Source: a virus. Taken from it: a DNA stretch of 64,000 nt. The stretch's first letter is position 1, and every line of letters starts with the position of its first letter. Location of the stretch: IMG/VR virus record IMGVR_UViG_3300028654_000384, positions 62,001-126,000 of that record, one strand, 5' to 3'. The notes beneath the pieces were generated by a model. It saw nothing but the letters and a program-made list of their open reading frames with translations, was not told the origin of the DNA and ran no database searches. Positions 12,092-64,000 of the stretch are shown in pieces. A program made the position numbers and the translations under genes.

Positions 12092-12671
12092 GCATAGGCC
12101 CGGCGCGCCGACCGAAGTGGGACTGGCCCGCTACATGACGAAGGACGAGCTGCGAGAGCTGGCCTTGGCAGCGTCGAAGGCGGCCGATGAACTCGAGGCG
12201 CGTCAATCGCCCATCACCGTCGTGGGATCACAGGTGCCTGCCAACGTGACGTTGGCACAGCACAACATTGACTACGTCAACAATCCCGGCATACAGGCCG
12301 GAGCGGCGAGCACCCTGCCACCCGGCGTGACGTTCGTGGTGCGGGACCCGGGCAAAGGTGGGCTGATGGGTGGCTTCACCGAGCGCGAGCTGACGATGTT
12401 GTCGTACTTGATGGCGTGGCTCGTCAAGTCGCCGGCGTCCGCCGGGCGGTTGGTTTCCGTCGCTACTGGAACACAAGATGACTCTACGTTGCTTCCGCTC
12501 CTCAAGGAGCTACAGGAGCTGATCACTACCACGGCGATCGAGCGCAATTTTGCATCCGATCGTGTCACACTGCGCGCCGCGGCGCTGACGTGGTTGGGCA
12601 ACCCACACGCTCGCAAGCATGTCATTGGGAGGTTGCTATTGACGGCACTCGACGCAGGGGAGGTGGGCTGA
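11970..12671 (+). CDS. Hypothetical protein
   Basis: 233 residues, soluble, no family recognised. An N-terminal beta-rich part (MLIAFDTKFHKPKSP, VTLALGPGTAMLTL) is followed by helical segments. The ATG lies inside the membrane-protein gene in another frame. Codon use is typical of the GC-rich part of the genome. It ends in a TGATG overlap with a tiny membrane-peptide gene. Confidence 0.7.
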   Translation: MLIAFDTKFHKPKSPSGDEVTLALGPGTAMLTLRSDKFNVEHRPGAPTEVGLARYMTKDELRELALAASKAADELEARQSPITVVGSQVPANVTLAQHNIDYVNNPGIQAGAASTLPPGVTFVVRDPGKGGLMGGFTERELTMLSYLMAWLVKSPASAGRLVSVATGTQDDSTLLPLLKELQELITTTAIERNFASDRVTLRAAALTWLGNPHARKHVIGRLLLTALDAGEVG

Positions 12672-12748
12672 TGTGGCTCGCCGTCCTGATCGTGGTCGCG
12701 GTGTTTAGCATCGGCTTCATCCTTGGTCAAGCTCTGGAGAGGCGGTGA
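12671..12748 (+). CDS. Single-helix membrane peptide
   Basis: 25 residues: MWLAVLIVVAVFSIGFILG then QALERR. One membrane helix with a charged C-terminus. The start overlaps the upstream stop (TGATG), and the next gene begins three bases later. Function unknown. Confidence 0.5.
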   Translation: MWLAVLIVVAVFSIGFILGQALERR

Positions 12749-12751
12749 TTC

Positions 12752-13699
12752 ATGTCACTGTGCGGAGGTTGTGGATCTACGTTTGACCCATGGTCATTGA
12801 GTGGAAAAGGTAGATTTGTAAGTCGATGGTGTCGATGTTGTGTTGATGGCACTAAACGTCGTCAAGTGTTTGATTGTTTAGGTTGTCATCAACACATTGA
12901 TCGTTGGGTTGAAGGTCTTTATACCTCACCAACTTTTTGTAATAAGTCATGTAGAATGAAGTATGAATATGCTAACAATATTAGGCGTAATTTTCTTAAT
13001 GATAAAACAACGTGGGAATGGTGGGTCAGTAAATACGGCGAAGAAGAAGCACTTCGTAGAAAAGAGCATCATCGCGACGCAACATCACTAGCTACGTCGG
13101 GAGAAAATAATCCGATGTATGGGCGTCATGATCATGTACACGGTTTGAAACGTTTTGCCAAAGAAAAGACTGGTAAAACACTTGAAGAAGTGCATGGCGT
13201 TGATCTAGCAAGGAAAATGCGCGAGAACAAGTCATTACATGCGCGTGGGTCAAATAATCCTGCGTATGGCAAGGTGTATACGAAAGGTGGAAAGAGCATT
13301 AAGGGTTACTACAAAGACAAGTTTTTTCGTAGTCTACTCGAGTATTCATTCATGAAACATCTTGAGAGTGAGGGGTTATCGCTTAACATTGATGTTGATT
13401 ATGAGTGCTTCATTGTTCCATATGTGTTCAATGGTGCTGATCGGACATATCGCGTTGATTTTTACGTGCCAAGTCGTCATGCAGTGTATGAAGTCAAACC
13501 TGCTTATGCTATGAAAGGTGTGACGCCCATCAATGAAGCAAAATGGAGTGCAGCACGTGTATACTTCAACCAACGCGGCATACAATTTTATGTAATGTCT
13601 GAGTTAGATTTTCCAAAGATCATGTTTGATATCGCGAGACAAGACAGCGATGTGACATGGAAAGAAGAGACGTTCAAGTATTTCAAGAGGTCAAAATGA
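12752..13699 (+). CDS. Homing endonuclease, NUMOD3 plus restriction-like nuclease core
   Basis: 315 residues. Four cysteine pairs in the first 75 residues (CGGC, CRCC, CLGC, CNKSC) form zinc knuckles. Two NUMOD3 repeats follow (ENNPMYGRH, SNNPAYGKV). The C-terminal third carries FRSLLEYSFMKHLE and YRVDFYVPSRHAVYEVKP, a D-...-E-x-K arrangement as in Vsr/PD-(D/E)XK-type homing nucleases. It is strongly AT-rich relative to its neighbours, as expected of a mobile gene, and overlaps the kinase gene by four bases. Confidence 0.75.
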   Translation: MSLCGGCGSTFDPWSLSGKGRFVSRWCRCCVDGTKRRQVFDCLGCHQHIDRWVEGLYTSPTFCNKSCRMKYEYANNIRRNFLNDKTTWEWWVSKYGEEEALRRKEHHRDATSLATSGENNPMYGRHDHVHGLKRFAKEKTGKTLEEVHGVDLARKMRENKSLHARGSNNPAYGKVYTKGGKSIKGYYKDKFFRSLLEYSFMKHLESEGLSLNIDVDYECFIVPYVFNGADRTYRVDFYVPSRHAVYEVKPAYAMKGVTPINEAKWSAARVYFNQRGIQFYVMSELDFPKIMFDIARQDSDVTWKEETFKYFKRSK

Positions 13700-17030: not shown

Positions 17031-18344
17031 ATGAAGCGACTACTGGTGACGACGCAGTTGAGCAACTTTGTCGACGGTAAAGCAGATCTCGCTTGCGATA
17101 GCGGGTGGCAAATGTGCATCAACCGCATCCGCGAGATGCTACGATTGAACCCCAACCTCTACGTCGACATCATGGGACCCAATGAGGATCAGTTGGTGCA
17201 GCACCCCGCCGACGTCAATCCTGATCTGGTTGCGATGTACGGCGAGATCGACGTGCCACGATTGCGGTACATTGAGCACCCAATCGTCACCAGCGCGCTG
17301 ATCACCCGCTATGACTTCAAGTGGTCGGAGATCGCCGACTCAATGGGCCTCGAGGAACACAAGGCTGATGTCACCCAGCGCTATGACGCCGTCTATGTGA
17401 ATGATCCCATGCAGCTCCGCGCCTTCAAGGCCATGTTCCACGTCGTCGGGGGCTACCAACCCAAGTTCTTCGTGCACTCACACTTCGTCGACGTCCCCGA
17501 GGTCCCCAAGTTCCCAGCCGAAGCGTCGCTGTGGCTGGGCCAGTGCGAGGCCACGCTGAAGGCTGACTACAACTTCTGGCAGTGCGAGTCGGCGATGAAC
17601 CAGTTCTTCGACAGCATGGGCAAGTGGTTCGTGCAGGACGTGGTCGACGACGTGCGGGCTAAATCGCAAGCGTCTGATGACGGGTATTCGATTGCGGAGA
17701 TCACTTCGCCCATATGCCAAGCTAATCTACGGTTTACGGACGCTGAGTGGCGTGCCAAGACTAATGGTAAGGTGGTACTGTTCTTTCCCAATCGCATTAG
17801 CCAGAGTTCAAGTGATTACACGCGTGGTTGGTGGTTCACACATGAGTTCATGCCCAAACTTCGACAACGTCGCCAAGACTATGTCGTGGTGTGCGGTAAT
17901 CCTAACATGAAGCTGTCGAATGATGAACTCGTTCAATTATGTGGGCCTCATGGTTATGTTAAGCTGCACGATCACACGTTCAATCGTGATGAGTATAAGT
18001 ACGTTGCGTCACACAGTGACATTGTCGTAGCGCTGTATGATGCCAAGAGTGACGCGTACGGTGGGACGGCCTCTCGAGAATGCATTGAATTGGGGTGTGT
18101 ACCATGCTGGCCTTCTTGCAATGAATATTTGAGCCTTGCTCGAGAAGCAAGAGTTGAACACCTATTGGCCAAGTCTGACTTGTCTGATTTAGTAGACGTC
18201 GCAGACAATCTCATTGGTCTTGCGGGTTCATCATCTTTGCCATTGAAACAGTACAATGAACGATTGCGTGAAGTTGTACGTAGGCGCTGTTCGTTTGAAC
18301 AGACTGTTCCCACAATGATGAAAAAGATGGGTCTACTATGCTAA
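17031..18344 (+). CDS. GT-B-type glycosyltransferase
   Basis: 437 residues. The C-terminal half looks like a GT-B nucleotide-sugar domain: GKVVLFFPNRI, DYVVVCGNPNMKL, YKYVASHSDIVVALYDAKSD and GTASRECIELGCVPCWPSCNEY, where the Glu in RECIELG is in the position that binds the sugar nucleotide. The N-terminal half is less typical. Given dCMP hydroxymethylase and UDP-sugar enzymes in this window, one candidate substrate is hydroxymethylcytosine in DNA. Glycan or protein substrates are equally possible. Composition is GC-rich up to about 17660 and AT-rich after, continuing into the homing endonuclease. Confidence 0.7.
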   Translation: MKRLLVTTQLSNFVDGKADLACDSGWQMCINRIREMLRLNPNLYVDIMGPNEDQLVQHPADVNPDLVAMYGEIDVPRLRYIEHPIVTSALITRYDFKWSEIADSMGLEEHKADVTQRYDAVYVNDPMQLRAFKAMFHVVGGYQPKFFVHSHFVDVPEVPKFPAEASLWLGQCEATLKADYNFWQCESAMNQFFDSMGKWFVQDVVDDVRAKSQASDDGYSIAEITSPICQANLRFTDAEWRAKTNGKVVLFFPNRISQSSSDYTRGWWFTHEFMPKLRQRRQDYVVVCGNPNMKLSNDELVQLCGPHGYVKLHDHTFNRDEYKYVASHSDIVVALYDAKSDAYGGTASRECIELGCVPCWPSCNEYLSLAREARVEHLLAKSDLSDLVDVADNLIGLAGSSSLPLKQYNERLREVVRRRCSFEQTVPTMMKKMGLLC

Positions 18345-19363
18345 TTGAAGTTCTCGAAACATGGATCAAGACGCCTCGATACAAGAATCGTGGTAAACGA
18401 CGATTGTTAGCGATTGTTGCGTGTGATGCGTGCGGCAAACGTGAACAGCTACCATACATCAACGGAATGTGGGAGACTCGAAAACGCGTCTGTTCACCTG
18501 AGTGTGATACAAAACTACGATCTCGTGGTGGTGCGCTTTATGCAAGTATCACGGCGACGAACGTAGAGCGATATGGCGCAAAGTACGCATCAGCGACTGA
18601 TTTAGGAAAGCACAAACAGGAAGAGACAAATCTTAGAAAGTATGGATATAAGGCATCCTCACAATCACCTGAAGTTGAAGCTAAACGACTTAACACGTGT
18701 CTTTCTATGTATGGCGGACCTGCAGCAACAAGTGACGCGAACGTCAGAGCGAAAGTCAAGTTGACGTGTGATACCAAGTTTGGTGGTGGTGTGTTGCTCG
18801 ATGATGATATTCGAGAGCAATTCAACGCAACTATGGTAGAACGACATGGTGCACCGTGGGCAGCACAATCAGCAATCATTCTCGCTAAACAACATCAGAC
18901 CAACATTGAACGTTATGGAGTTGCGTTTCCATTCCACACAGATGAAGCGAAGTCAAGAGCACACTCACCCCAAGCGCTACTCAAACGCCATGAGACCATG
19001 AAGCGTAATGGCACATACAGGACTTCAAAGCCTGAAGACCGTCTCTATCAAGTTCTGTGTGAGATGTTTGATATAGACGACGTCGACCGCCAGACGCTCG
19101 TATACAAGTGGCCAATTGACTTCTACGCCAAGAGCATTGACACCTACGTACAGTACGACAGTTATTGGCATGGCGTCGGACGCGCAATCATTGAGGTCGC
19201 TGAACACAAGGTGCCTCGAGACGTCTCGATTCACAAGAAGATGCTGACTGACATCGCTCAGGATGCGTACTTCGCCGAACGTGGCATGCGGCTCATTCGT
19301 GTGCAGAGCCTGACGCCTGAACAGATTACCCCCGCGGCCATGCGTCGCATGGGCCTGCTGTGA
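18338..19363 (+). CDS. Large homing-endonuclease-like protein
   Basis: 341 residues. A CxxC...C...C zinc site near the start (CDACGKREQ, VCSPECDTK) is followed by repeated N-x-E-R-Y-G units (NVERYGAKYAS, NLRKYGYKASS, MVERHGAPWAA, NIERYGVAFPF). A C-terminal nuclease-like domain has KPEDRLYQVL, WPIDFYAKS, YVQYDSYWHG and a helical end. This layout matches a large class of phage homing endonucleases (DUF7487-like). The first two thirds are AT-rich. The start overlaps the glycosyltransferase stop. Confidence 0.75.
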   Translation: MLIEVLETWIKTPRYKNRGKRRLLAIVACDACGKREQLPYINGMWETRKRVCSPECDTKLRSRGGALYASITATNVERYGAKYASATDLGKHKQEETNLRKYGYKASSQSPEVEAKRLNTCLSMYGGPAATSDANVRAKVKLTCDTKFGGGVLLDDDIREQFNATMVERHGAPWAAQSAIILAKQHQTNIERYGVAFPFHTDEAKSRAHSPQALLKRHETMKRNGTYRTSKPEDRLYQVLCEMFDIDDVDRQTLVYKWPIDFYAKSIDTYVQYDSYWHGVGRAIIEVAEHKVPRDVSIHKKMLTDIAQDAYFAERGMRLIRVQSLTPEQITPAAMRRMGLL

Positions 19364-19364
19364 C

Positions 19365-19691
19365 ATGAAACCCGGTGACCTCATCGAGTGGGCGTACAAG
19401 TCGGACGGCAAAGTCGTTCACCCCCATGAAGAATTGTGGTCATCGATCGAGAAACGCTACGTGCCCATCGGCGGCCTACACCTGTTCGTCAGCAATGTTG
19501 ACGGCACCCTGACATGGCTGCCTCTGGGTGAGAATTGTAAGGGGTTGCTCCACGCGCGCGAGGCTGATACGATGGCCAGGTCGGGCCGGTCGTTCGCGAC
19601 GAGCGGTTGCTCCACGCGCGCGAGGCTGATACCGACCTGTACGGCGAGTGGTGCGACGACGAAGTCGGTTGCTCCACGCGCGCGAGGCTGA
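19365..19691 (+). CDS. MKPGDLI-family small protein, 3' end carrying repeats
   Basis: 108 residues. The first 70 match two later genes (24293, 24550): MKPGDLIEWAY, YVPIGG, H-L, VDG-LTWL-L. Paralogues continue with an L-x-A-x-E-x-D segment that here is the first copy of a 28-bp direct repeat. The last 40 residues run through repeats two and three in other frames, so the native C-terminus is probably lost. Function unknown; the fold is likely a small beta barrel. Confidence 0.65.
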   Translation: MKPGDLIEWAYKSDGKVVHPHEELWSSIEKRYVPIGGLHLFVSNVDGTLTWLPLGENCKGLLHAREADTMARSGRSFATSGCSTRARLIPTCTASGATTKSVAPRARG

Positions 19692-19778: not shown

Positions 19779-20735
19779 ATGACCGAACGGGTATTGATCA
19801 CGGGCGCGGCGGGTTTCATCGGCTCAAACCTGGTCACCCGGTGCCTGGCCGAAGGGTGGGTCGTCCGCGGCGTCGACGACATGAGCAGTGGCCACCGAGA
19901 ACTGCTGCACCCCGCCTTTAATACTGGTAGCCTGTTGATCGGCGACTTTGCCGCTGATTTCGTCCTCAACTCGATCAGGGCACAGGCCTTCGACGTCGTC
20001 ATTCACCTGGCGGCGACGCCCCGCGTCAGCTATTCCGTCGAACACCCGCTGGAAACGCACGACAACAACGTCACCAAGACGCTGAAGTTGCTCGACGCCT
20101 GCACGGGCAACGTCAAACGCTTCGTCTTCGCCAGCTCCAGTGCCGTCTATGGTGGCGCGCTGGAGCTGCCCACTCCCGAGACGGCACCCAAGGAACCCAA
20201 GTCGCCCTATGCACTCCAGAAGTCGATCATTGAGGACTACCTGAAGTTGTACAGCAACCTCTACGGCCTCGACAGCGCTTGCCTGCGGTTCTTCAACGTC
20301 TTCGGCCCGGGCCAGTTGGGTAGCAATCCCTATGCGACGGCGATCGCGGCGTGGCTGACAGCGATCAAGCGCGGCGAGCCCATGCGCAGCGACGGTGACG
20401 GCTTTCAAAGCCGCGACATGTGCTACGTCGACAACGTCACTGATGCCTGTGCCAAGGCGGTGCAGAGCAAGGTACCCCTGATGGGAGCGTGTTACAACGT
20501 GGCCTGCGGCGACAATGTCTCCAACAACGACATCTTGGCGGTGTTGCGGGCCCATTACCCAGAGGCGACCGTCGTCAATGCGCCGGCTCGACGGGGCGAC
20601 GTGATGCACACCATGGCCGACGTGTCGAAGGCCCAGCAACAGTTGGGCTACGTGCCGCTGGTCAAGTTCTGGCCGGGCCTCATCAAGACGATGATGTGGT
20701 ACGAGCGTGAGTGGGAACAGATCAGGAGCCTGTGA
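19779..20735 (+). CDS. UDP-sugar 4-epimerase-like SDR
   Basis: 318 residues. Rossmann motif GAAGFIGSN, Ser in FASSSAVYGG, and YALQK as the Tyr-x-x-x-Lys pair. RFFNVFGPGQ and the overall layout fit GalE/WbpP-type UDP-hexose or UDP-GlcNAc 4-epimerases. Some members also interconvert UDP-xylose and UDP-arabinose, of interest because a UDP-xylose-synthase-like enzyme is encoded at 3968. Substrate cannot be fixed from sequence alone. Confidence 0.85.
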   Translation: MTERVLITGAAGFIGSNLVTRCLAEGWVVRGVDDMSSGHRELLHPAFNTGSLLIGDFAADFVLNSIRAQAFDVVIHLAATPRVSYSVEHPLETHDNNVTKTLKLLDACTGNVKRFVFASSSAVYGGALELPTPETAPKEPKSPYALQKSIIEDYLKLYSNLYGLDSACLRFFNVFGPGQLGSNPYATAIAAWLTAIKRGEPMRSDGDGFQSRDMCYVDNVTDACAKAVQSKVPLMGACYNVACGDNVSNNDILAVLRAHYPEATVVNAPARRGDVMHTMADVSKAQQQLGYVPLVKFWPGLIKTMMWYEREWEQIRSL

Positions 20736-20932: not shown

Positions 20933-21162
20933 GCAATGTCAGGTCAGTCGCAGATTACCATGCAAATCACGCAATTGAAGCACTCAAAGTGCTCATTGAG
21001 TCAACGCCTGAAGGCGAGTTCGTAGATATCCCACAAACACGTCAACAGCTCGAACAGATGCGTCAAAAATTGATCGGCATCGAACACATGAAGGATAGCG
21101 TCGCATACATCGATTATCAACTTGAACAGGGTGATTTGGGAAGGGTACGATTCGCAACATGA
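20929..21162 (+). CDS. Small helical hypothetical protein
   Basis: 77 residues, mainly helical with a likely coiled coil (RQQLEQMRQKLIGIEHMKD). AT-richer than its neighbours. Overlaps both flanking genes by four bases, so it belongs to the same operon as the hydroxymethylase. Confidence 0.6.
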   Translation: MSNVRSVADYHANHAIEALKVLIESTPEGEFVDIPQTRQQLEQMRQKLIGIEHMKDSVAYIDYQLEQGDLGRVRFAT

Positions 21163-21914
21163 TTACTAACACCGTCTCTGACATGCGACTGGAGCTGGCA
21201 CGTCACCTCGCTGACCAGCGCTTCACCAGCGTCAACCGTGAGGCGTCAATGACGTCGCTGGTCGGCGCCAAGACGATCGAACTGTGTGGTGTCAACTTCA
21301 TCGCCGACCAAGAAGTGCTGTTCGGCAAGCTGAACCACGATTACCTCAAGCGTGAGGAACAGTGGTACCAGTCAATGTCGTGCAGCGTTGATGACTTTCC
21401 GGGTGGCGCCCCCGCGGTGTGGGAGGCAATCGCCTCGAGGGATGGACTGGTCAACTCAAACTACGGCTACCTCATCCGTCACTCCGACAATGGTTATCAG
21501 TTCGACCACGTCGTTAACGAGTTACGAAGGAACCCGGAGTCCCGCCGAGCGGTGATGATCTACACCCGGCCGTCGATGTGGGTCGACTACAATAAGGGTG
21601 GGCGCTCTGACTTCGTCTGCACCAACACGGTGCAGTACCTGATCCGCGACGGTTCGGTGAGTGCTGTGGTGAATATGCGCTCACAAGATTCACACATCGG
21701 ATATAAGAACGATCGCGAATGGCAGCGATTGACGCTCAACGCCGTCGCTGATGCGGTGGGAGTACCAGCGGGCGTGCTGATGTGGCAGGTGGGGTCGCTC
21801 CATGTCTACCAACGTGACTTCTACCTCGTCGATCACTTCATCAAGACGCGTGAAGTCAACATCACCAAGGCGCAGTACCGTGAACTGTATCCCACGTCGC
21901 CGTATAATGAGTGA
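21159..21914 (+). CDS. 42: dCMP hydroxymethylase (T4 gp42-like)
   Basis: 251 residues, thymidylate-synthase fold, close to T4 gene 42 along its length: KTIELCGVNFIADQ, NSNYGYLI, RRNPESRRAVMIYTRPSM, DFVCTNTVQYLIRDG with the catalytic Cys, and VGSLHVYQRDFYLVDH. At the base-recognition position thymidylate synthases have Asn; here NDREWQ places Asp, as in dCMP hydroxymethylases. The enzyme makes 5-hydroxymethyl-dCMP from dCMP with methylene-tetrahydrofolate. The phage DNA therefore probably contains hydroxymethylcytosine. Overlaps the previous gene by four bases. Confidence 0.9.
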   Translation: MITNTVSDMRLELARHLADQRFTSVNREASMTSLVGAKTIELCGVNFIADQEVLFGKLNHDYLKREEQWYQSMSCSVDDFPGGAPAVWEAIASRDGLVNSNYGYLIRHSDNGYQFDHVVNELRRNPESRRAVMIYTRPSMWVDYNKGGRSDFVCTNTVQYLIRDGSVSAVVNMRSQDSHIGYKNDREWQRLTLNAVADAVGVPAGVLMWQVGSLHVYQRDFYLVDHFIKTREVNITKAQYRELYPTSPYNE

Positions 21915-21930
21915 AGGAGCAACACCGAAA

Positions 21931-22497
21931 ATGACATGCATCGTTGGCGTCGCGAAGGGCAACACGGTCTGGTTGGGCGGCGATAGTGCCGCGACGGGCG
22001 GGAACATGAATCGCACCATCATCAAGGATCCCAAGGTCTTCGTCCGCGGCGAGCTAGCCTTCGGCGTCTGCGGCCTACCTAAGGTGATGGACGCCGTGGC
22101 CCATGGCATCGAAATGCCCCAGCAACAAGGTGATACAAGCGATCGGACCTTTCTGGTCAATGAGCTGGTGCCGGCCCTCCGCGCGGGGCTCAAGCGCCTT
22201 GATTGTACCGCCAAAGACCCGCAATTCGGCACCGTCTTCATGGGAGGCATGTTGATCGGCTACCGAGGTGTCATCTATGAGTTGCAGGGCAATTTTCAAC
22301 TGTGTACCTGCGCTGAAGGCTTTGCCTCGGTCGGCTCGGGCTCGCCCTTCGCCAAGGGCGCCCTCCATGCGTCGAATGGCAAGGGCAGTCCCCGCAAGCG
22401 GATCCTCAACGCCCTCGAGTGCGCGACAAAGGGCAATGCGGGCGTCGCCCCACCCTTTGTCATCGTCAGTGTCAAGCAGAAAAGGAAGTGGCTGTAA
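21931..22497 (+). CDS. Proteasome-beta-like Ntn hydrolase, copy 1
   Basis: 188 residues from ATG-ACA-TGC. After Met removal Thr1 would be N-terminal: T-C-I-V-G, with GGDSAATGG giving Asp17 and DPKVF giving a Lys near position 33, the proteasome/HslV catalytic trio. FGVCGLPKVMDAV and ASVGSGSPFAKGAL match conserved beta-subunit strands. No propeptide. A start at 21907 would add eight residues and bury Thr1, so I prefer 21931. A paralogue follows two bases downstream. Target unknown. Confidence 0.8.
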   Translation: MTCIVGVAKGNTVWLGGDSAATGGNMNRTIIKDPKVFVRGELAFGVCGLPKVMDAVAHGIEMPQQQGDTSDRTFLVNELVPALRAGLKRLDCTAKDPQFGTVFMGGMLIGYRGVIYELQGNFQLCTCAEGFASVGSGSPFAKGALHASNGKGSPRKRILNALECATKGNAGVAPPFVIVSVKQKRKWL

Positions 22498-22499
22498 GC

Positions 22500-23081
22500 A
22501 TGACCTGCGTCGTTGGGTTGGAAGATCACGGCATCATCTACGTCGGTGCGGACAGTGCGGGCATCGACTCTCACTCGTTGAGCATCGTCGGCCGCGCCGA
22601 CGAGAAGGTCTTCGTCACCGATGACGGCGACTTCATCATGGGCTTTGCGGGCTCTTTCCGCATCGGTCAGCTGCTGCGCTATGCCCTCGTCACCCCTGAT
22701 CAACCGGGCCGCATGGATGACATGGCCTACATGGTCACCGACTTCATCGACGCCGTGCGCGCAATGCAGCACGACAAAGGCGCGCGAGAGAAGAAGGACG
22801 AACTTGAACAGCACGAGGCCTCGTTCATCGTCGGGTATCGAGGTCACCTCTATGTCATCGAGAGCGACTACCAGGTGGGTCGACCCATCGACAACTATGC
22901 CGCGATCGGTTGTGGAGCTGACATGGCCTTGGGTGCCATGTACGCGACCAAGAAGCTGAAGATGAAGCCTGAAGAGCGATTGATGTTGGCGCTGCAGGCG
23001 GCCGCAGAGTTTAGCGCCGGCGTCAGGCCACCCTTTCACATCCTGAAGCTCGAACCTCCTGTTGTTGACGAGGCAAAGTAG
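22500..23081 (+). CDS. Proteasome-beta-like Ntn hydrolase, copy 2
   Basis: 193 residues beginning M-T-C-V-V-G. Thr1, Asp17 in VGADSAG and Lys35 in DEKVF are all present; GFAGSFRIGQLL and AIGCGADMALGAMYA match the beta-subunit core. It differs from copy 1 over most of its length, so this is an old duplication. Tandem pairs could form a mixed ring or act separately. No unfoldase ATPase is visible nearby. The start is set by homology to copy 1; earlier in-frame codons lie inside copy 1. Confidence 0.8.
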   Translation: MTCVVGLEDHGIIYVGADSAGIDSHSLSIVGRADEKVFVTDDGDFIMGFAGSFRIGQLLRYALVTPDQPGRMDDMAYMVTDFIDAVRAMQHDKGAREKKDELEQHEASFIVGYRGHLYVIESDYQVGRPIDNYAAIGCGADMALGAMYATKKLKMKPEERLMLALQAAAEFSAGVRPPFHILKLEPPVVDEAK

Positions 23082-23711: not shown

Positions 23712-24296
23712 ATGGCCGACACCAACGCCTCTCTGATCGTCTTCTGTGGGCCCATGATGTCGGGCAAGACGTCGAAGCTGTTGATGGCCCTCGAGCGCCT
23801 CAAGTACCAGCACAAGCGCGTTGCCGTCTTCAAGCCCTCGCTCGACGTCAGGTACAGCGCCAGCGAAATCGTCAGCCACTTGGGTTGGCGGCACCCGGCG
23901 ACGACGGTGCAAGGCGGCGCCGACATCCTCGAGGCACTGGCTGAGGCCGACGTGGCACCTGATGCGATTGCCGTCGACGAGGCCTTCATGATCCCGGGTG
24001 TCGCAGGGGTGTTGACGTGGTTGTACCGCACCGGCGTCGACGTCGTCGTCTCCACGCTCGACATTTCGGCGACGGGCAAGCCCTTTCCCGAGGTCGAGAA
24101 GTTGTTGCCGTGGGCCACGCACATCGAGAAGTGCTCGGCCGTCTGCACCCAGTGTGGCCGTGACGCCTTCTACACCCACAAGAAGCAGGTGTCGACCGAC
24201 GATGAGATTGAAGTCGGTGGTGCCGAGATGTACGAGCCGCGTTGTAGCCGCCATCACGTCGCGATCGATCTGCGGCCCAAGCTCAATGAGCCATGA
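23712..24296 (+). CDS. tdk: Thymidine kinase (type II)
   Basis: 194 residues, usual length. Walker A GPMMSGKTSKL, the catalytic VDEAFM loop, and a zinc site from CTQCGRDAFYTHK plus a later Cys (RCSRHH). It phosphorylates thymidine with ATP in dTTP salvage. Together with dCMP deaminase (26006) and the NMP kinase (13696) it supplies phage DNA precursors. Confidence 0.9.
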   Translation: MADTNASLIVFCGPMMSGKTSKLLMALERLKYQHKRVAVFKPSLDVRYSASEIVSHLGWRHPATTVQGGADILEALAEADVAPDAIAVDEAFMIPGVAGVLTWLYRTGVDVVVSTLDISATGKPFPEVEKLLPWATHIEKCSAVCTQCGRDAFYTHKKQVSTDDEIEVGGAEMYEPRCSRHHVAIDLRPKLNEP

Positions 24297-24553
24297 AACC
24301 CGGCGATCTCATCGCGCGGGTGTACGAATCTGACGGCGTTACAGCACTTCGTAGAGAAGAATTGTTATCATCGGTGACGGGCGATTACGTGCCCATTGGG
24401 GGCATTCACCTGTTGATCAGCTATGTCGATGGAATATTGACATGGTTGCCTTTGGGTGCAAACTGCAACGAGTTGTTTAGTGCGGACGAGAACGACACCG
24501 AAGCCGGCATTGCAGGCGACGACGTCATCTACGTACACGTGAGCCTGACATGA
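24293..24553 (+). CDS. MKPGDLI-family small protein
   Basis: 86 residues, paralogue of 19365 and 24550: MKPGDLIARVYESD, YVPIGGIHLLIS, VDGILTWLPLG, then LFSADENDT and an acidic tail. This is probably the most intact member. Beta-rich; the PGDLI start recalls small phage barrel proteins. Function unknown. Confidence 0.7.
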   Translation: MKPGDLIARVYESDGVTALRREELLSSVTGDYVPIGGIHLLISYVDGILTWLPLGANCNELFSADENDTEAGIAGDDVIYVHVSLT

Positions 24554-24840
24554 AGCCAGGCGACCTCATCGAGTGGGCGTATAGGGTTGATAATTGTGTC
24601 GTTGTTCACAGTGAATATTTGTGGTCATCGGTGTTCAATCGTTTTGTGCCCATTGGGGGCATCCACCTGCTGATCGGACGCGCCGATGGGATATTGACGT
24701 GGCTGTCTCTACGTGCAGCTCACAAGGGCTTGTTGCGAGCCGCCGAGCGCGATGTGCTGTGCCTAAGGGCGGAACGTCCTGCCGGCAAGGGTTGTTACGC
24801 ACGTGTCTTCGGGCGCGGTGCGGTGAGGCCGACGGTGTAA
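24550..24840 (+). CDS. MKPGDLI-family small protein
   Basis: 96 residues, in tandem with 24293 by a four-base overlap. Shares MKPGDLIEWAY, FVPIGGIHLLIG, DGILTWLSL and GLLRAAERDV. The C-terminal 30 residues diverge. The three-member family suggests repeated local duplication. Confidence 0.7.
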   Translation: MKPGDLIEWAYRVDNCVVVHSEYLWSSVFNRFVPIGGIHLLIGRADGILTWLSLRAAHKGLLRAAERDVLCLRAERPAGKGCYARVFGRGAVRPTV

Positions 24841-24869: not shown

Positions 24870-26009
24870 GTGATACCCATTCGCCGCCCATTCACAATGA
24901 AACTGCCCGCTGAAGTGTTGACCCTATCGAGCCTCTTCAATCAGGTGGGTCATGAGCTCTACGTGGTCGGCGGTGCCGTTCGCGATGCGGTGTTGGGGCA
25001 ATCACCCAAGGACTTTGACGTGGCGACGGGGGCGACACCAGACCAAGTGGTGAAGCTGCTGAAGACACTGCCTGGCGGGTGCAAGATCAATGCCGTCGGC
25101 AAGTCATTCGGCGTCGTCAAGGTGCAGTTCTACGCCGCGCGCAATGAACTCGAGATCGCCACGTTCCGCCAGGACGTGGGTGCAGGGCGAAGGCCTGAAA
25201 GCGTCGTCTTTACCACGATCGACGAGGACGTCAAGCGCCGTGATTTAACGATCAACGCGCTGTTCTTCGACATCGAACGCAGCGAACTCGTCGATCTGGT
25301 GGGCGGGTTGGCTGACCTCGACGCCAAGCTCGTCAGGACGGTGGGCGACCCATTCGCACGCTTTGCCGAAGATCGCCTCCGCATCCTGCGCGCCGTCAGG
25401 TTCGCCTGCAAGTTGGGCTTTGACATCGAAGGGATGACTGCGCAGGCGATCAAGCACGACCCCAACCTTCACGGCGTGTCGCCTGAGCGCATTCACGACG
25501 AGTTCACTCGTGCCGTGGCGACGGCGAAACACGTGCCGGCACTGATGCAGCACCTGAACTACTTTGACCTGTGGCCTCACGTGCTGCCGGGCCTCAACGT
25601 GTCGTACCAGTTGGCCGAAGGCATCACCTCACGCGTGCCTGAGGTCGCACTAGCAGTGCTGCTCGATCACCAGCGACCGTGTGGCATCGACGAGCGTTTG
25701 GCCGCGCTGAAGTACAGCGCTCACGAGATCTCGCGGACGACGTTCCTGTTGAGGTACCGCGACCTCGAGGTGTCGAGTGCCTTCAAGCTGCGCAAGGCCT
25801 TCTTGGCGTGCTCGATGAGCGCTGAGGTGCTGCAGGACTACTATCGCCTGCGGGGCCTGCCCGTCACTGCGTTGGTCAGGGCCTTCAACGACTACCTGCG
25901 CGCGGCGCCCGTCAAGGGCGGCGACGTGATGAAGGATGGTTTTGCTAAGCAGGCGCTTGGCGCTGAGATTGAACGACGTGAGACCGAGATTTTCAAGGGG
26001 TTGCTATGA
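24870..26009 (+). CDS. CCA-adding enzyme / poly(A) polymerase family nucleotidyltransferase
   Basis: 379 residues. YVVGGAVRDAVLGQSPKDFDVAT is the class II nucleotidyltransferase signature with the catalytic Asp pair. KRRDLTINALFFD and the DRLRILRAVRFACKLGF block are conserved neck motifs. It would add or repair CCA on tRNA 3' ends, possibly countering host tRNA damage during infection (inference). The start is GTG 24870 by promoter spacing, or ATG 24897 with loss of nine residues. Confidence 0.85.
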   Translation: MIPIRRPFTMKLPAEVLTLSSLFNQVGHELYVVGGAVRDAVLGQSPKDFDVATGATPDQVVKLLKTLPGGCKINAVGKSFGVVKVQFYAARNELEIATFRQDVGAGRRPESVVFTTIDEDVKRRDLTINALFFDIERSELVDLVGGLADLDAKLVRTVGDPFARFAEDRLRILRAVRFACKLGFDIEGMTAQAIKHDPNLHGVSPERIHDEFTRAVATAKHVPALMQHLNYFDLWPHVLPGLNVSYQLAEGITSRVPEVALAVLLDHQRPCGIDERLAALKYSAHEISRTTFLLRYRDLEVSSAFKLRKAFLACSMSAEVLQDYYRLRGLPVTALVRAFNDYLRAAPVKGGDVMKDGFAKQALGAEIERRETEIFKGLL

Positions 26010-26566
26010 AGAAGACATTCGAGGAAGCATGGGCCGAGAAGGAGAAACAGGGCTACCAGTACGGCGCCGACGCCCTGGAGCAGGTTCGCATGGGATGGGA
26101 GCTGCACGAAGGTGCTGATGAGCCCAAGGTCGGTCGATCACCTTGGCCTACGCGGTGGATGAATGTCGCTCGCTTGCTAGCCAGTGAGTGTTCTTATGAC
26201 CCAAGACTGAAGGTCTGTGCAATCATGGTGCCCGAGGACAATACGGGAATCATGGCTTTTGGGTACAATGGGAATGCGAAGGGCATGCCCAATGAAGTCG
26301 AGTCACTTGTTCCCGGCCAATCAGGTGCGATTCACGCTGAACAAAATTGCCTCATTAAGGCACCATTCCACTTTCCACTCAAGAAACACATGTACATCAC
26401 CCACAGTTCATGCAGGGCCTGTGCCAAGCTCCTGATCAACGCCAACGTGTCGCGCGTGGTCTATGGAGAGCTGTACCGCGACGCGTCGGGCCTCGACCTG
26501 CTGCGAGCAGCGGGAATAGAGGTTTACTCCGAGGCAGAAGCCGTGGCCCTTACGGCACGGGCGTGA
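26006..26566 (+). CDS. dCMP deaminase-like cytidine deaminase
   Basis: 186 residues. The zinc site is complete: HAEQNCL supplies His and the proton-shuttling Glu, and SSCRACAKLL supplies two Cys. GYNGNAKGMPNE matches deoxycytidylate deaminases. An N-terminal extension of about 40 residues precedes the domain. It converts dCMP to dUMP for thymidylate synthesis. The start overlaps the CCA-enzyme stop. Confidence 0.85.
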   Translation: MKKTFEEAWAEKEKQGYQYGADALEQVRMGWELHEGADEPKVGRSPWPTRWMNVARLLASECSYDPRLKVCAIMVPEDNTGIMAFGYNGNAKGMPNEVESLVPGQSGAIHAEQNCLIKAPFHFPLKKHMYITHSSCRACAKLLINANVSRVVYGELYRDASGLDLLRAAGIEVYSEAEAVALTARA

Positions 26567-26579: not shown

Positions 26580-26891
26580 GTGATGAAGAAGCTACAGGAA
26601 GTCGACGTCATTCGCATCATGCGCGAGGAATGGTCAGCGAAGGTCAAGACCCTTGCCGAGGAGGTTGACGTCGTCATGAACTCCAAGGTGAAGGATGGTA
26701 GCACGGTGGGGGTGCTCTCGCCGGGATTAAAGATAAAACATAAACAAAGTGGGATTTTGTACACCGTCATGTCCGTCGGCCCACGTGATGTGCTGATCAG
26801 GCCGCCCGATGGAGACCCAAATGGATCAATTAGTGACACTGCGATGCTCGTCGATGCTGCTGAGCTAGAGCAGTCCTACAAGCTTGACTGA
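26580..26891 (+). CDS. Virion-type protein
   Basis: 103 residues. The N-terminus (KKLQEVDVIRIMREEWSAK) is a looser targeting-like helix. The second half is a small beta domain (LSPGLKIKHKQSGILYTVMSVGPRDVLIRPPDG) of a kind I associate with phage structural proteins. Start is GTG 26580 or ATG 26583; the first fits the late-promoter spacing. Confidence 0.7.
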   Translation: MMKKLQEVDVIRIMREEWSAKVKTLAEEVDVVMNSKVKDGSTVGVLSPGLKIKHKQSGILYTVMSVGPRDVLIRPPDGDPNGSISDTAMLVDAAELEQSYKLD

Positions 26892-26910
26892 AATTGGGAG
26901 ATCAATACGA

Positions 26911-27639
26911 ATGGCACAGCACGATAAAGAAGACCAGTTGACCGATCTCCTCAAGGGCGTCGACATCAAGGGCATCGTCAATGGCGCGTTGCAGAAGGGT
27001 GGTGCTGTCGCTGCCCCCATCGACGAGGCCTACGTGGCGCAGCCCAAGCCCTACTCGCAGGTGACGGAGTTCGTGTCCCAGAAGACGAAGGACGCCCACA
27101 CGTCGCTGTACCAGAAGTACGTCGAGACGTTGAACCGGGTGTCTGCTGAACTCGACACTGCTTCGAAGTCGGAAGCCAACAGCAACCACTCCGACTTCAG
27201 GAGCCTGAAGCTTGATGAGACGCGGTTGCTGAACGCGGTTTGGCTACATGAACTTTACTTCGCCAACTGCTTTGACGTTCATAGTGAGTGCTACATGAAT
27301 TCCATGGCGTACATCCGCCTGGAACGTGACTTCGGCACCTTTGAGGACGCACAGCAGGACATGATGGCATGTGCGCTGGCCTGCGGTGAGGGCTGGATGA
27401 TCACCGCCTACAACATGTTCCTCAAACGCTACGTCAACGTCATGGTCACCGACAACAGCCACGACGTGATGTTGGGGCTGTACCCGATCATCGTCATCGA
27501 CATGCATGCTCACGCGTACTTCAAGGACTACCTGACTGACAAGAAGAGCTACCTCGTAGCGATGATGCGCCAGCTCAACTGGAACGTCATCGAAGAGCGG
27601 TTCACCAAGGCTGAATCGATTGCCGAGGTGGTCAAGTGA
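26911..27639 (+). CDS. Fe/Mn superoxide dismutase-fold protein
   Basis: 242 residues from the ATG with ribosome site GGGAG; the in-frame TTG at 26884 is less likely. After an extended N-terminus (SQVTEFVSQKTKDAHTSLYQKYVETLN), the SOD pattern is visible: His in KDAHTSLYQKYV, His in LNAVWLHELYFANCF, GEGWMITAYN, and Asp plus His in IDMHAHAYFKDY, followed by LNWNVIEERF. All four metal ligands therefore appear present. It lies in a virion-type operon. It may be a virion-borne dismutase or a structural protein keeping the fold. Confidence 0.75.
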   Translation: MAQHDKEDQLTDLLKGVDIKGIVNGALQKGGAVAAPIDEAYVAQPKPYSQVTEFVSQKTKDAHTSLYQKYVETLNRVSAELDTASKSEANSNHSDFRSLKLDETRLLNAVWLHELYFANCFDVHSECYMNSMAYIRLERDFGTFEDAQQDMMACALACGEGWMITAYNMFLKRYVNVMVTDNSHDVMLGLYPIIVIDMHAHAYFKDYLTDKKSYLVAMMRQLNWNVIEERFTKAESIAEVVK

Positions 27640-52140: not shown

Positions 52141-53000
52141 TGACGCAGACATACCGCAAGACGTGGCGACCTGATAGCACCCAACCACTGCCCGCAGGCC
52201 AAGCCGCATTCCACGACCTGCCACTCGGGGCGGCTAACCTCGCCTCGGTGCTGGCGGCGGGCGCTGCTGTGCCCAATCAGATCGTGGAACAGGGTGGCAT
52301 CCTCGACCTCAGGCCCCTGTGCCCACCAATTGACAACCAGTACCAAGTGTCCGACTGCGTTGCCGATGCCACGTGTTCGGCGTTGGAGTTCTGTCAGATC
52401 CGCAATGGCCTGCCCTTCGTCAAGCTGTCACGCCTGTTCATGTACTACAACGCTCGATTGCAGACGCAGGACACCGCCAACGATGCAGGCACCTACATCA
52501 GGTTGGCCTTTAGCACTCTCGCGTCGCTGGGCACCTGTCCTGAGTCCACGTGGGCCTATGACACCTCAATGATCTTCACCCGCCCGTCGTGGGAGAGCTA
52601 CCGCGAGGCGTATCCCAACAAGGTCACCAACTTCTACTCGATCAGCCAGCTGTTGATCGCGGCGAACAACATCATCAATCCCAATTCGTTGACGGCCTCC
52701 ATCAAGCAAGCACTGCAGGCGATCCACCCGGTCGTCTTCGGCATGACCGTTGATGAAGGTTACGACAACACGGGTCGCGACGGCATGGTGGCGATGCCGG
52801 CATCGAAGCGCATCAGTCCCGGTGGCCACGCACAGATGATCTGTGGCTACAACGACAACCTACAGCGATGGATCGTCAAGAACAGCTGGGGCACTGGTTG
52901 GGGCGACGGGGGATACTGCTACGTGCCCTATGCCTACTTGGGTGCGTCCGGCGTCGACGACATCTGGGTGCCGACGCTGGCACCGGGCCAGCGGGCGTGA
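52140..53000 (+). CDS. Papain-like (C1) cysteine protease
   Basis: 286 residues. Gln and Cys in NQYQVSDCVADATCSALEF, His in SPGGHAQMICGYND, and Asn in WIVKNSWGTGWGDGGY form the C1A catalytic set; NSWG-x-x-WG-x-x-G is the classic motif. No signal peptide. It lies between the endolysin and a targeting-helix gene, so it may help lysis or act on host or virion proteins. Confidence 0.85.
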   Translation: MTQTYRKTWRPDSTQPLPAGQAAFHDLPLGAANLASVLAAGAAVPNQIVEQGGILDLRPLCPPIDNQYQVSDCVADATCSALEFCQIRNGLPFVKLSRLFMYYNARLQTQDTANDAGTYIRLAFSTLASLGTCPESTWAYDTSMIFTRPSWESYREAYPNKVTNFYSISQLLIAANNIINPNSLTASIKQALQAIHPVVFGMTVDEGYDNTGRDGMVAMPASKRISPGGHAQMICGYNDNLQRWIVKNSWGTGWGDGGYCYVPYAYLGASGVDDIWVPTLAPGQRA

Positions 53001-61279: not shown

Positions 61280-62236
61280 ATGTTGAACCGTAGTTTTACG
61301 ATCGTGGCACTGTTGGGCACGTTGGCCTTCAATGCAGGCTGTTCGAGCCAAGACGTGCCGCCTGCACACAAGGGGCGCATGTTCGAGAAGACGGGCATGT
61401 TGAAGTTCTACACCGGAGGCAAGGGGTTTGATGGGCCAGTGTTGGGCCCGGGCACCTATTTCACCGGCGTGTATCCCGAAGTCAGGATCGTCGATTGCTC
61501 GACGCGGACGTTCAAGGAACCCATGACGTCGATGACGAAGGACGGCGTCCAATTCGCGCTCGATGTCTACATCACCGTCAGTGCCAACTGCGACAATGAT
61601 CAGGCCACCGAGATCCTGCTCAATAAGCTGGCCCCCACGGGCAAAGTCGACGCACCGAACCCGGGTGCCGGTGCAGGTAACGGCGTTCCCGACGAGAAAG
61701 ATCCCGTTGAGACTGATGCTGACCGTGCCATCACTTCGAGGCAGGTGTACAGCACCTTCGTGCGCCCCGCGTTGGGCGAAGCGGTGCGGCAGGCGATCGC
61801 CAGCTACGACGCCAACGACATCAACTCCCACCGGGAAGAACTGTTCGGCCGCATCAAGACGAAGCTCGACTCTGACCTGAAGGGTTCACCATCGCTGGTC
61901 ACCGTCGTCAACTTCAACCTGTCCAACTTCAAGCTGCCCGATGAGATGGCCAACGCCGCCGCCGACCGAGCGACACAACAGGTGCTCCGCGACAAGTCGG
62001 TCGCTGAACAGGAACGCATCAAGGTTGAGACGGCGACGGCACTGTTGCAGGTCGACAAGACCGCCGCCGAGGCACAAGCTGAAGCACGTAAGATCGATGT
62101 GGTCGGTGCTGCGCTGCACCGCAATCCCGAGTACTACGTCCGCGACGTCTATTACTACGCCGCGGAGCACGGAGGCAGCGTGATGCTACCGACGAATCCC
62201 AACGTCATCCTGTCGATGACGCCCGGACACAAGTAG
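61280..62236 (+). CDS. SPFH/prohibitin-like lipoprotein
   Basis: 318 residues. The signal sequence ends NAGC-SSQ, an atypical lipobox. The SPFH core is visible: GPGTYFTGVYPEVRIVDC, SMTKDGVQFALDVYITV, RQVYSTFVRPALGEAVRQAI, then an Ala/Glu/Gln/Arg coiled coil (ATALLQVDKTAAEAQAEARK) typical of stomatins and prohibitins. Such proteins form ring scaffolds on membranes. A lipid-anchored version would sit outside the inner membrane, and in a phage is unusual. Confidence 0.75.
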   Translation: MLNRSFTIVALLGTLAFNAGCSSQDVPPAHKGRMFEKTGMLKFYTGGKGFDGPVLGPGTYFTGVYPEVRIVDCSTRTFKEPMTSMTKDGVQFALDVYITVSANCDNDQATEILLNKLAPTGKVDAPNPGAGAGNGVPDEKDPVETDADRAITSRQVYSTFVRPALGEAVRQAIASYDANDINSHREELFGRIKTKLDSDLKGSPSLVTVVNFNLSNFKLPDEMANAAADRATQQVLRDKSVAEQERIKVETATALLQVDKTAAEAQAEARKIDVVGAALHRNPEYYVRDVYYYAAEHGGSVMLPTNPNVILSMTPGHK

Positions 62237-63551: not shown

Positions 63552-64000
63552 ATGTGCACCCTCATCGTCCTCAGTGAAGCGATCGATGGTTACCCACTCG
63601 TCGTCGCCGCCAATCGCGATGAGCACTATGATCGGCCTTCGCTGCCGCCTGCAATCACCGGTGATGTCATCTGCCCGCGTGATCTCCACAAGGGTGGCAC
63701 GTGGCTGGGCGTGGCTCGTGGTGGCTGGTTCGCCGGGTTGACCAACCAAGTCGACGCCCACCAACCGCACCTGCTGGCGTCACGAGGCCACGTCGTTGAT
63801 GCTTGCCTCAAGGCCGGCAATCACCTGGCCGTGGCCCAATACCTGCAGGGGCTTGATCGTGGCGTCTACAACAACTTCAACCTGGTCTTTGGCAGGCCCG
63901 GCGCCATTTTTTTGTGCCGTGTCTGGGGGCTGCACGCGCTGGAGATGCTCGTGGTGCCTGCAGGAACCAGCGTCTTCACCAATGATTGTTGGGACGGGCA
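63552..64000 (+). CDS. NRDE-family (TANGO2-like) Ntn-hydrolase-type protein, 3' truncated
   Basis: At least 149 residues, open at the window end. MCTLIVLSE with Cys2 as the candidate N-terminal nucleophile, VVAANRDEHYDRP as the N-R-D-E signature, and GGTWLGVARGGWFAGLTN are the TANGO2/NRDE hallmarks. Biochemical role of the family is unsettled. It is the third predicted Ntn-type hydrolase in this window. Confidence 0.8.
   Translation, partial: MCTLIVLSEAIDGYPLVVAANRDEHYDRPSLPPAITGDVICPRDLHKGGTWLGVARGGWFAGLTNQVDAHQPHLLASRGHVVDACLKAGNHLAVAQYLQGLDRGVYNNFNLVFGRPGAIFLCRVWGLHALEMLVVPAGTSVFTNDCWDG

Follow-up and report, generated by a model that had tools for sequence, protein, structure and literature searches.

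Two diverged proteasome-like genes form a conserved tandem in large metagenomic phages

What does a virus do with two proteasome-like genes lying side by side? Phage homologues of the proteasome (AAH and PPH) have been listed since 2021 as single-copy genes without known unfoldases, and the accessible part of that study gives them no function and found no informative, function-linked gene context for the novel homologues (Fuchs, Alva and Lupas 2021, PMC8665760). The question is raised by a stretch of 64,000 nucleotides (positions 62,001 to 126,000 of the virus record IMGVR_UViG_3300028654_000384; hereafter the window), in which an initial annotation had proposed a tandem of proteasome-beta-like hydrolases. 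The tandem proved real. Both ORFs lie on the + strand with 2 bases between them, both match PHROG_1040, and the two proteins are 28% identical over their full length. We refer to them as A (P0001) and B (P0002).

21915-21920, + strand: Shine-Dalgarno-like AAGGAG before the A start (sequence)
21931-22497, + strand: A-type proteasome-like subunit P0001, 188 aa (PHROG_1040, AlphaFold2/Foldseek)
22500-23081, + strand: B-type proteasome-like subunit P0002, 193 aa (PHROG_1040, AlphaFold2/Foldseek)

Both proteins had been described as starting Met-Thr-Cys without a propeptide and as keeping an intact Thr1/Asp17/Lys33-type site, and we could confirm both points. AAGGAG precedes position 21931, similar purine runs are found ahead of most orthologues, and MTC is the earliest start codon in several of these. 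An alternative start of P0001 at 21907, 24 bases upstream and adding MSEGATPK, is possible. Since this start has no Shine-Dalgarno, since AAGGAG lies ahead of 21931 and since orthologues begin with MTC, the absence of a propeptide in P0001 is well supported. Removal of the Met by the host methionine aminopeptidase would expose Thr1. Numbered after Met removal, the catalytic residues are Thr1, Asp17, Lys34 (equivalent to Lys33) and the oxyanion Gly47 in P0001, and Thr1, Asp17, Lys35 (equivalent to Lys33) and the oxyanion Gly50 in P0002. The equivalent of Ser129 is Ser in P0001 (GSG) and Cys in P0002 (GCG). P0001 ends in a basic tail, KQKRKWL.

A sensitive profile search, which could have put the pair outside the proteasome/HslV family, placed it inside. 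PHROG_1040 ("peptidase HslV family") matched P0001 with an E-value of 5.5e-21 and P0002 with 2.5e-22; against the Pfam Proteasome family PF00227, both single sequences matched only below the cut-off. By phmmer, P0002 retrieved the betaproteobacterial proteasome homologue BPH (5ovs, E 1.9e-6). Searched against the PDB, a profile of 55 relatives matched HslV (1.3e-10), BPH (5.5e-10) and 20S beta chains (1.1e-7), and nothing beyond these at E <= 0.01. AlphaFold2 models of P0001 and P0002 had pLDDT values of 95.6 and 95.1 and showed the Ntn fold, with an S1-S11 core and flanking helices. For both models Foldseek returned BPH, then HslV, then 20S beta, with a probability of 1.00 for all three; the best matches were BPH 5ovt for P0001 (E 3.4e-11) and BPH 5ovs for P0002 (E 1.9e-13). 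The nearest viral folds were phage proteins, one of them named HslV. Given the E-values of the PHROG_1040, profile and Foldseek searches, these matches are not due to chance. Moreover, the residues typical of the family (Thr1/Ser1, Asp17, Lys33, Gly47) are present in both proteins. P0001 and P0002 are thus members of the proteasome-like family, related to BPH and HslV, which are their nearest relatives with solved structures by both sequence and fold. Membership of this family presupposes neither proteolytic activity nor assembly into rings.

Within this family the pair differs from each characterized neighbour. BPH (PDB 5OVS/5OVT/5OVU) is the best structural match of both (TM-score 0.70-0.81) and shares with them Thr1, Asp17, the Lys and the lack of a known unfoldase, but it is only 16-23% identical to them in structural alignments; it is a bacterial homo-oligomer with a longer and more acidic pore loop. 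HslV of the HslVU system has the same fold and catalytic triad and a profile match, but the pair falls far short of the HslV NCBIfam models TIGR03692 and NF003964 (no more than 23.2 bits, where the cut-offs lie at 137 and 157.75), and the phage records examined have no HslU-type gene. The models contain helices H1-H4 and a short pore-loop hairpin, without an H3-H4 insertion and without H5. H3/H4 insertions are regarded as hindering double rings (Fuchs et al. 2021, PMC8665760), so by the group definitions in the accessible part of that paper the models fit group I and are compatible with double rings. AAH, as described there, is a compact group-I protein of many phages and alphaproteobacteria with no propeptide and no known unfoldase. 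Its group-I features (no insertions, no S12/H5, H1-H4, no propeptide) recur in P0001 and P0002, which by these features are probably of the AAH type. PPH (Proteasome homologue of Phages and their Hosts, PMC8665760) is likewise phage-borne and of group I, but is described there as having about 140 residues and no helix H2, unlike the pair, with 188-193 aa and a predicted H2 (residues 71-89 in P0001 and 74-92 in P0002).

We then compared the pair with 234 relatives. Thr1 was found in 233 of them, the remaining one having Ser, and the equivalents of Asp17 and Lys33 were invariant (234/234). The position of the oxyanion Gly47 was mostly Ser or Thr, with Gly in 39. At the Ser129 position Cys occurred in 172 and Ser in 52 of the 234; all A proteins have GSG, and B proteins have GCG except for Val in L078 and Ala in L079. 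As Cys is the commonest state at this position, reading the loss of Ser129 in B as inactivation is weak. Between orthologues dN/dS was 0.07-0.25 wherever dS was estimable, one comparison being saturated; the pair evolves under purifying selection. The position two before the oxyanion Gly is Val or Ile in A and Phe or Tyr in B in our alignments. We take it to be proteasome residue 45, at the S1 pocket. The C-terminal tail is net positive in 10 of 10 A proteins and of mixed charge in B. A BPH-like acidic pore loop was considered as a feature separating A from B and was rejected, the loops being mildly negative throughout (mean charge -2.4 in A, -1.8 in B and -1.2 in the remaining relatives). Among bacterial sequences, many Azospirillum proteins are about 44-48% identical to P0002, and the relative at L247:1205-1776 (Bradyrhizobium sp. 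NAS96.2) is split between a pair of neighbouring ORFs that overlap, which may reflect a frameshift in this copy or an error in the sequence.

The initial annotation had proposed a survey of phages for the pair. An A-type search in IMG/VR, in which the window's virus and an overlapping contig with identical A and B proteins were counted once, yielded 12 metagenomic virus contigs with an A-type gene; in 10 of these a B-type gene lies beside it in the same orientation: the window's virus, 3300033063_000091 (L003), 3300036772_000425, 3300044712_001255 (L036), 3300037501_000232, 3300033412_000004, 3300005529_000001, 3300035696_000014, 3300004481_000740 and 3300037010_002844. One gene separates A from B in L003; in the other pair contigs the two frames overlap by up to 4 bases or lie up to 28 bases apart. 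The order is reversed in L036, a 324-kb virus contig, which also has a third proteasome-like copy at most 2 kb from the pair (L036:10520-11188). In 3300050821_009947 the A gene lies at the contig end, and in 3300023179_008318 (L035) it has no B nearby and is followed directly by a small ORF and GroEL. Phylogenetically, A is a distinct monophyletic subfamily, forming one clade with an SH-aLRT support of 99. Seven of the eight B sequences in the tree form a clade (support 92) amid single-copy relatives, and the L036 partner falls elsewhere. Among 148 viral loci flanked by 1.5 kb or more on either side, a second copy was found only in loci of A-bearing contigs.

Isolated phages gave a different picture. 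PHROG_1040-type homologues occur in 63-76 isolated phage records, at one place per record per query (E <= 1e-5), and none is an A-type relative, the best identity to P0001 being 32%. These singletons, among them those of Escherichia phage 121Q, Geobacillus virus E3, Moorella phage MTATph1 and Ochrobactrum phage vB_OspM_OC, belong to the same family as the pair. In several isolated phages, viewed case by case, the homologue lies near nucleotide-metabolism or PhoH genes; Geobacillus virus E3, for example, has thymidylate synthase and DHFR near its PHROG_1040 gene. The Salmonella jumbo phage pSal-SNUABM-04 resembles the viruses studied here in having two predicted HslV-like ORFs and no HslU but, according to the accessible part of its description, these are ORFs 1 and 116 and hence not in tandem, and that part offers no analysis of the two (PMC7823757).

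Profile matches to thymidylate synthase, thymidine kinase and dCMP deaminase bore out the nucleotide-metabolism neighbours reported earlier. The pair lies in a syntenic block consisting of epimerase, thymidylate synthase, A, B, thymidine kinase, tRNA nucleotidyltransferase, dCMP deaminase and a superoxide dismutase-like gene. The core of the block (ThyA-A-B-TK) is conserved around the pair, and two small ORFs lie between B and the thymidine kinase. At the DNA level we found no plasmid homologues of the block.

19779-20735, + strand: nucleotide-sugar epimerase, block gene F0 (PF01370 E 5.6e-50; 9/10 compared loci)
21159-21914, + strand: thymidylate synthase family gene, block gene F1, directly upstream of A (PF00303 E 1.6e-14, phrog_160 E 1.1e-42; syntenic)
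23712-24296, + strand: thymidine kinase, block gene F7, downstream of B (PF00265 E 2.3e-35; syntenic)
24870-26009, + strand: tRNA nucleotidyltransferase (CCA-adding type), block gene F3 (PF01743 E 1.6e-32, phrog_2244)
26006-26566, + strand: dCMP deaminase, block gene F5 (PF00383 E 2.5e-15, phrog_174)

Several other ORFs of this region deserve mention. A 251-aa protein at 26884-27639, present in 8/10 compared loci, has an iron/manganese superoxide dismutase C-terminal domain (PF02777, E 4.3e-17). Small paralogous proteins starting with MKPGDLI surround the block (19365-19691, 24293-24553 and 24550-24840; also L036:8550-9125), with similar PGDLI/PGDMI ORFs in L011, L035 and L256. Upstream of the epimerase, 18338-19363 encodes a DUF7487/homing-endonuclease-like ORF (PF24308, phrog_3339).

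The NRDE protein at 63552 had been counted as a third homologue of the same kind. We rejected this assignment: the protein belongs to the TANGO2 family (PF05742, E 8.8e-23) and has no PHROG_1040 or Proteasome match. A divergent third homologue does exist in the window's virus, outside the window, at G000:C1:50320-50826 (G000 being this virus; 168 aa, PHROG_1040 E 2.8e-4), with Thr1, Asp17 and Lys33 in place. Its region comprises L007:10320-10826 and 12324-12758 (G000:C1:50320-50826 and 52324-52758); judged by eye, an HSP20-like ORF lies 1.5 kb downstream of it, with ThyX-like and thymidylate-kinase-like ORFs nearby. The NRDE gene is the first gene of a locus that encodes a chaperonin.

63552-63998, + strand: NRDE/TANGO2-family protein, cut by the window end (PF05742)
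G000:C1:127165-128532: AAA ATPase (PF00004), 43 kb from the pair
G000:C1:125552-130871 (window 63552 to past its end): NRDE/TANGO2, AAA ATPase, small ORF and GroEL; also in L254, L255, L257 and L035

This gene order is conserved in G000, G001 and G006. The small ORF before GroEL (about 95-110 aa), seen in five records, may encode a phage co-chaperonin or GroEL partner. GroEL was found in 5/5 A-bearing records of more than 200 kb (G000, G001, G003, G006, G010) but in 0/7 large records with a single B-type gene, a contrast with a one-sided Fisher p of 0.0013 if the records were independent, which they are not, because the phages compared have a common ancestry. ClpP is encoded in G001, G003 and G006, outside the pair, and not in the window's record. 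The pair had also been described as lacking an unfoldase. This stood for the ClpX/HslU-type AAA_2 unfoldase (PF07724), found in 0/10 phage records as opposed to 14/14 controls, but the AAA ATPase of the GroEL locus has to be set against it. Threading unfoldases carry an aromatic-hydrophobic-Gly pore-loop motif. In a four-sequence alignment the pore-loop-1 region of the phage ATPase reads IADLGGLDNSTL and does not have this motif, so that the protein is a weak candidate for a threading unfoldase; presumably it is Bcs1-like.

Taking the fold, the catalytic residues, the purifying selection and the conserved tandem in large phages as established by computation, we favour, with about even confidence, the reading that A and B are paralogous group-I subunits predicted to form rings that degrade unfolded proteins with two specificities and no dedicated unfoldase. 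Each subunit would build double rings like those of BPH and HslV, which would enclose the active sites. Their substrates, degraded independently of ATP, would be peptides and proteins that are unfolded, damaged or still nascent, and the rings might work beside the phage's own chaperonin in early host takeover and in the proteostasis of the infected cell. Two cleavage specificities are suggested by the Val/Ile of A and the Phe/Tyr of B two before the oxyanion Gly. Against this reading counts that Cys replaces Ser129 in P0002, as in most of the family. What cautions most strongly against taking proteolysis for granted is BPH, which bound epoxomicin but showed no activity when standard peptidase and casein assays were applied (PMC5777263). 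As, in addition, the family member connectase is a protein ligase (PMC8665760), a conserved active site is no proof of proteolysis. The same two facts speak for A and B being specific non-degradative enzymes such as a ligase or an amidase, for which connectase and other Ntn hydrolases are precedents; this we consider quite unlikely, because both models have the H1-H2 that connectase is missing and no insertion over the active site.

It is possible, if doubtful, that A and B co-assemble in one hetero-oligomeric ring, in which the subunits alternate or a ring of A is stacked on one of B. The conserved adjacency of nearly overlapping reading frames in 10 contigs, the strong divergence of A from B with retention of all triad residues, and the differently charged C-terminal tails are consistent with this, but the inheritance patterns, as read from the sequences, argue mildly against it. 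Across eight genomes, a sample of low power, pairwise identities of A tracked those of neighbouring genes (r 0.36-0.76) and not those of B (r -0.12, thus no signal of A-B co-evolution), and B identities tracked none of the neighbours clearly. Moreover, L075 and L077 are 91% identical in A and 64% in B, the B of L036 is of an unrelated lineage and lies on the opposite side of A, and L035 has A with no B nearby. That A follows its neighbours but not B points, weakly with eight genomes, to exchange or fast evolution in the B slot. Another reading makes A and B partner peptidases of HslU or a different AAA+ unfoldase of the host, which the phage would hijack for targeted degradation of host proteins. 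It would agree with the close fold relationship to HslV and with the 10 records devoid of a phage-encoded ClpX/HslU-type AAA_2. We hold it to be unlikely, since BPH, the nearest fold relative, is reported to have lost the residues that contact HslU (PMC5777263) and since the accessible part of PMC8665760 names no co-occurring AAA+ interactor for the novel homologues. That the phage's own AAA ATPase (G000:C1:127165-128532) feeds the rings is very unlikely: its orthologues do occur in four A-bearing records of more than 200 kb, adjoining GroEL in three, but it is remote from the pair and, from its motif-less pore loop, of presumably Bcs1-like character. Some phages use proteases in head maturation, and a virion-maturation role had been among those first suggested for the pair. 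This role appears highly improbable, because the related records G001, G003, G006 and G007 encode a separate T4-type prohead protease (PF03420, S77) and the pair itself sits among nucleotide-metabolism genes; a Pfam scan found no PF03420 in P0001 or P0002. The window's own record, which may be a fragment, had no PF03420 match, and PF04586 was absent in six records. Returning to proteolytic rings of two specificities, one might extend the proposal to a large-phage proteostasis system made up of GroEL, the Bcs1-like AAA ATPase and a protease of two proteasome-like subunits. The derived A would be linked in function to the chaperonin, and an exchangeable B would set or adapt specificity. We regard this extension as rather speculative.

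Single-copy phage homologues are already known (PMC8665760; PHROGs; the isolated phage records above), which reduces the novelty implied by the initial annotation. As far as we found, what is new is a conserved, diverged A/B pair shared by ten or more related giant viruses that bear GroEL where they exceed 200 kb. The accessible part of PMC8665760 makes no mention of the A subfamily or of the tandem, and in the open-access literature we found no description of these or of the GroEL association; beyond Fuchs 2021 and scattered annotations, our literature search returned no report of experiments on a phage proteasome homologue. The association of the A subfamily with GroEL is, to our knowledge, the first context lead for this family, and the conserved diverged pair makes it possible to ask directly whether phages assemble proteasomes that have several specificities or are hetero-oligomeric. 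Should the pair prove proteolytic, these phages would possess a system of their own for folding or degrading proteins, and their duplication would independently parallel those that gave cellular proteasomes alpha/beta and beta1/2/5.
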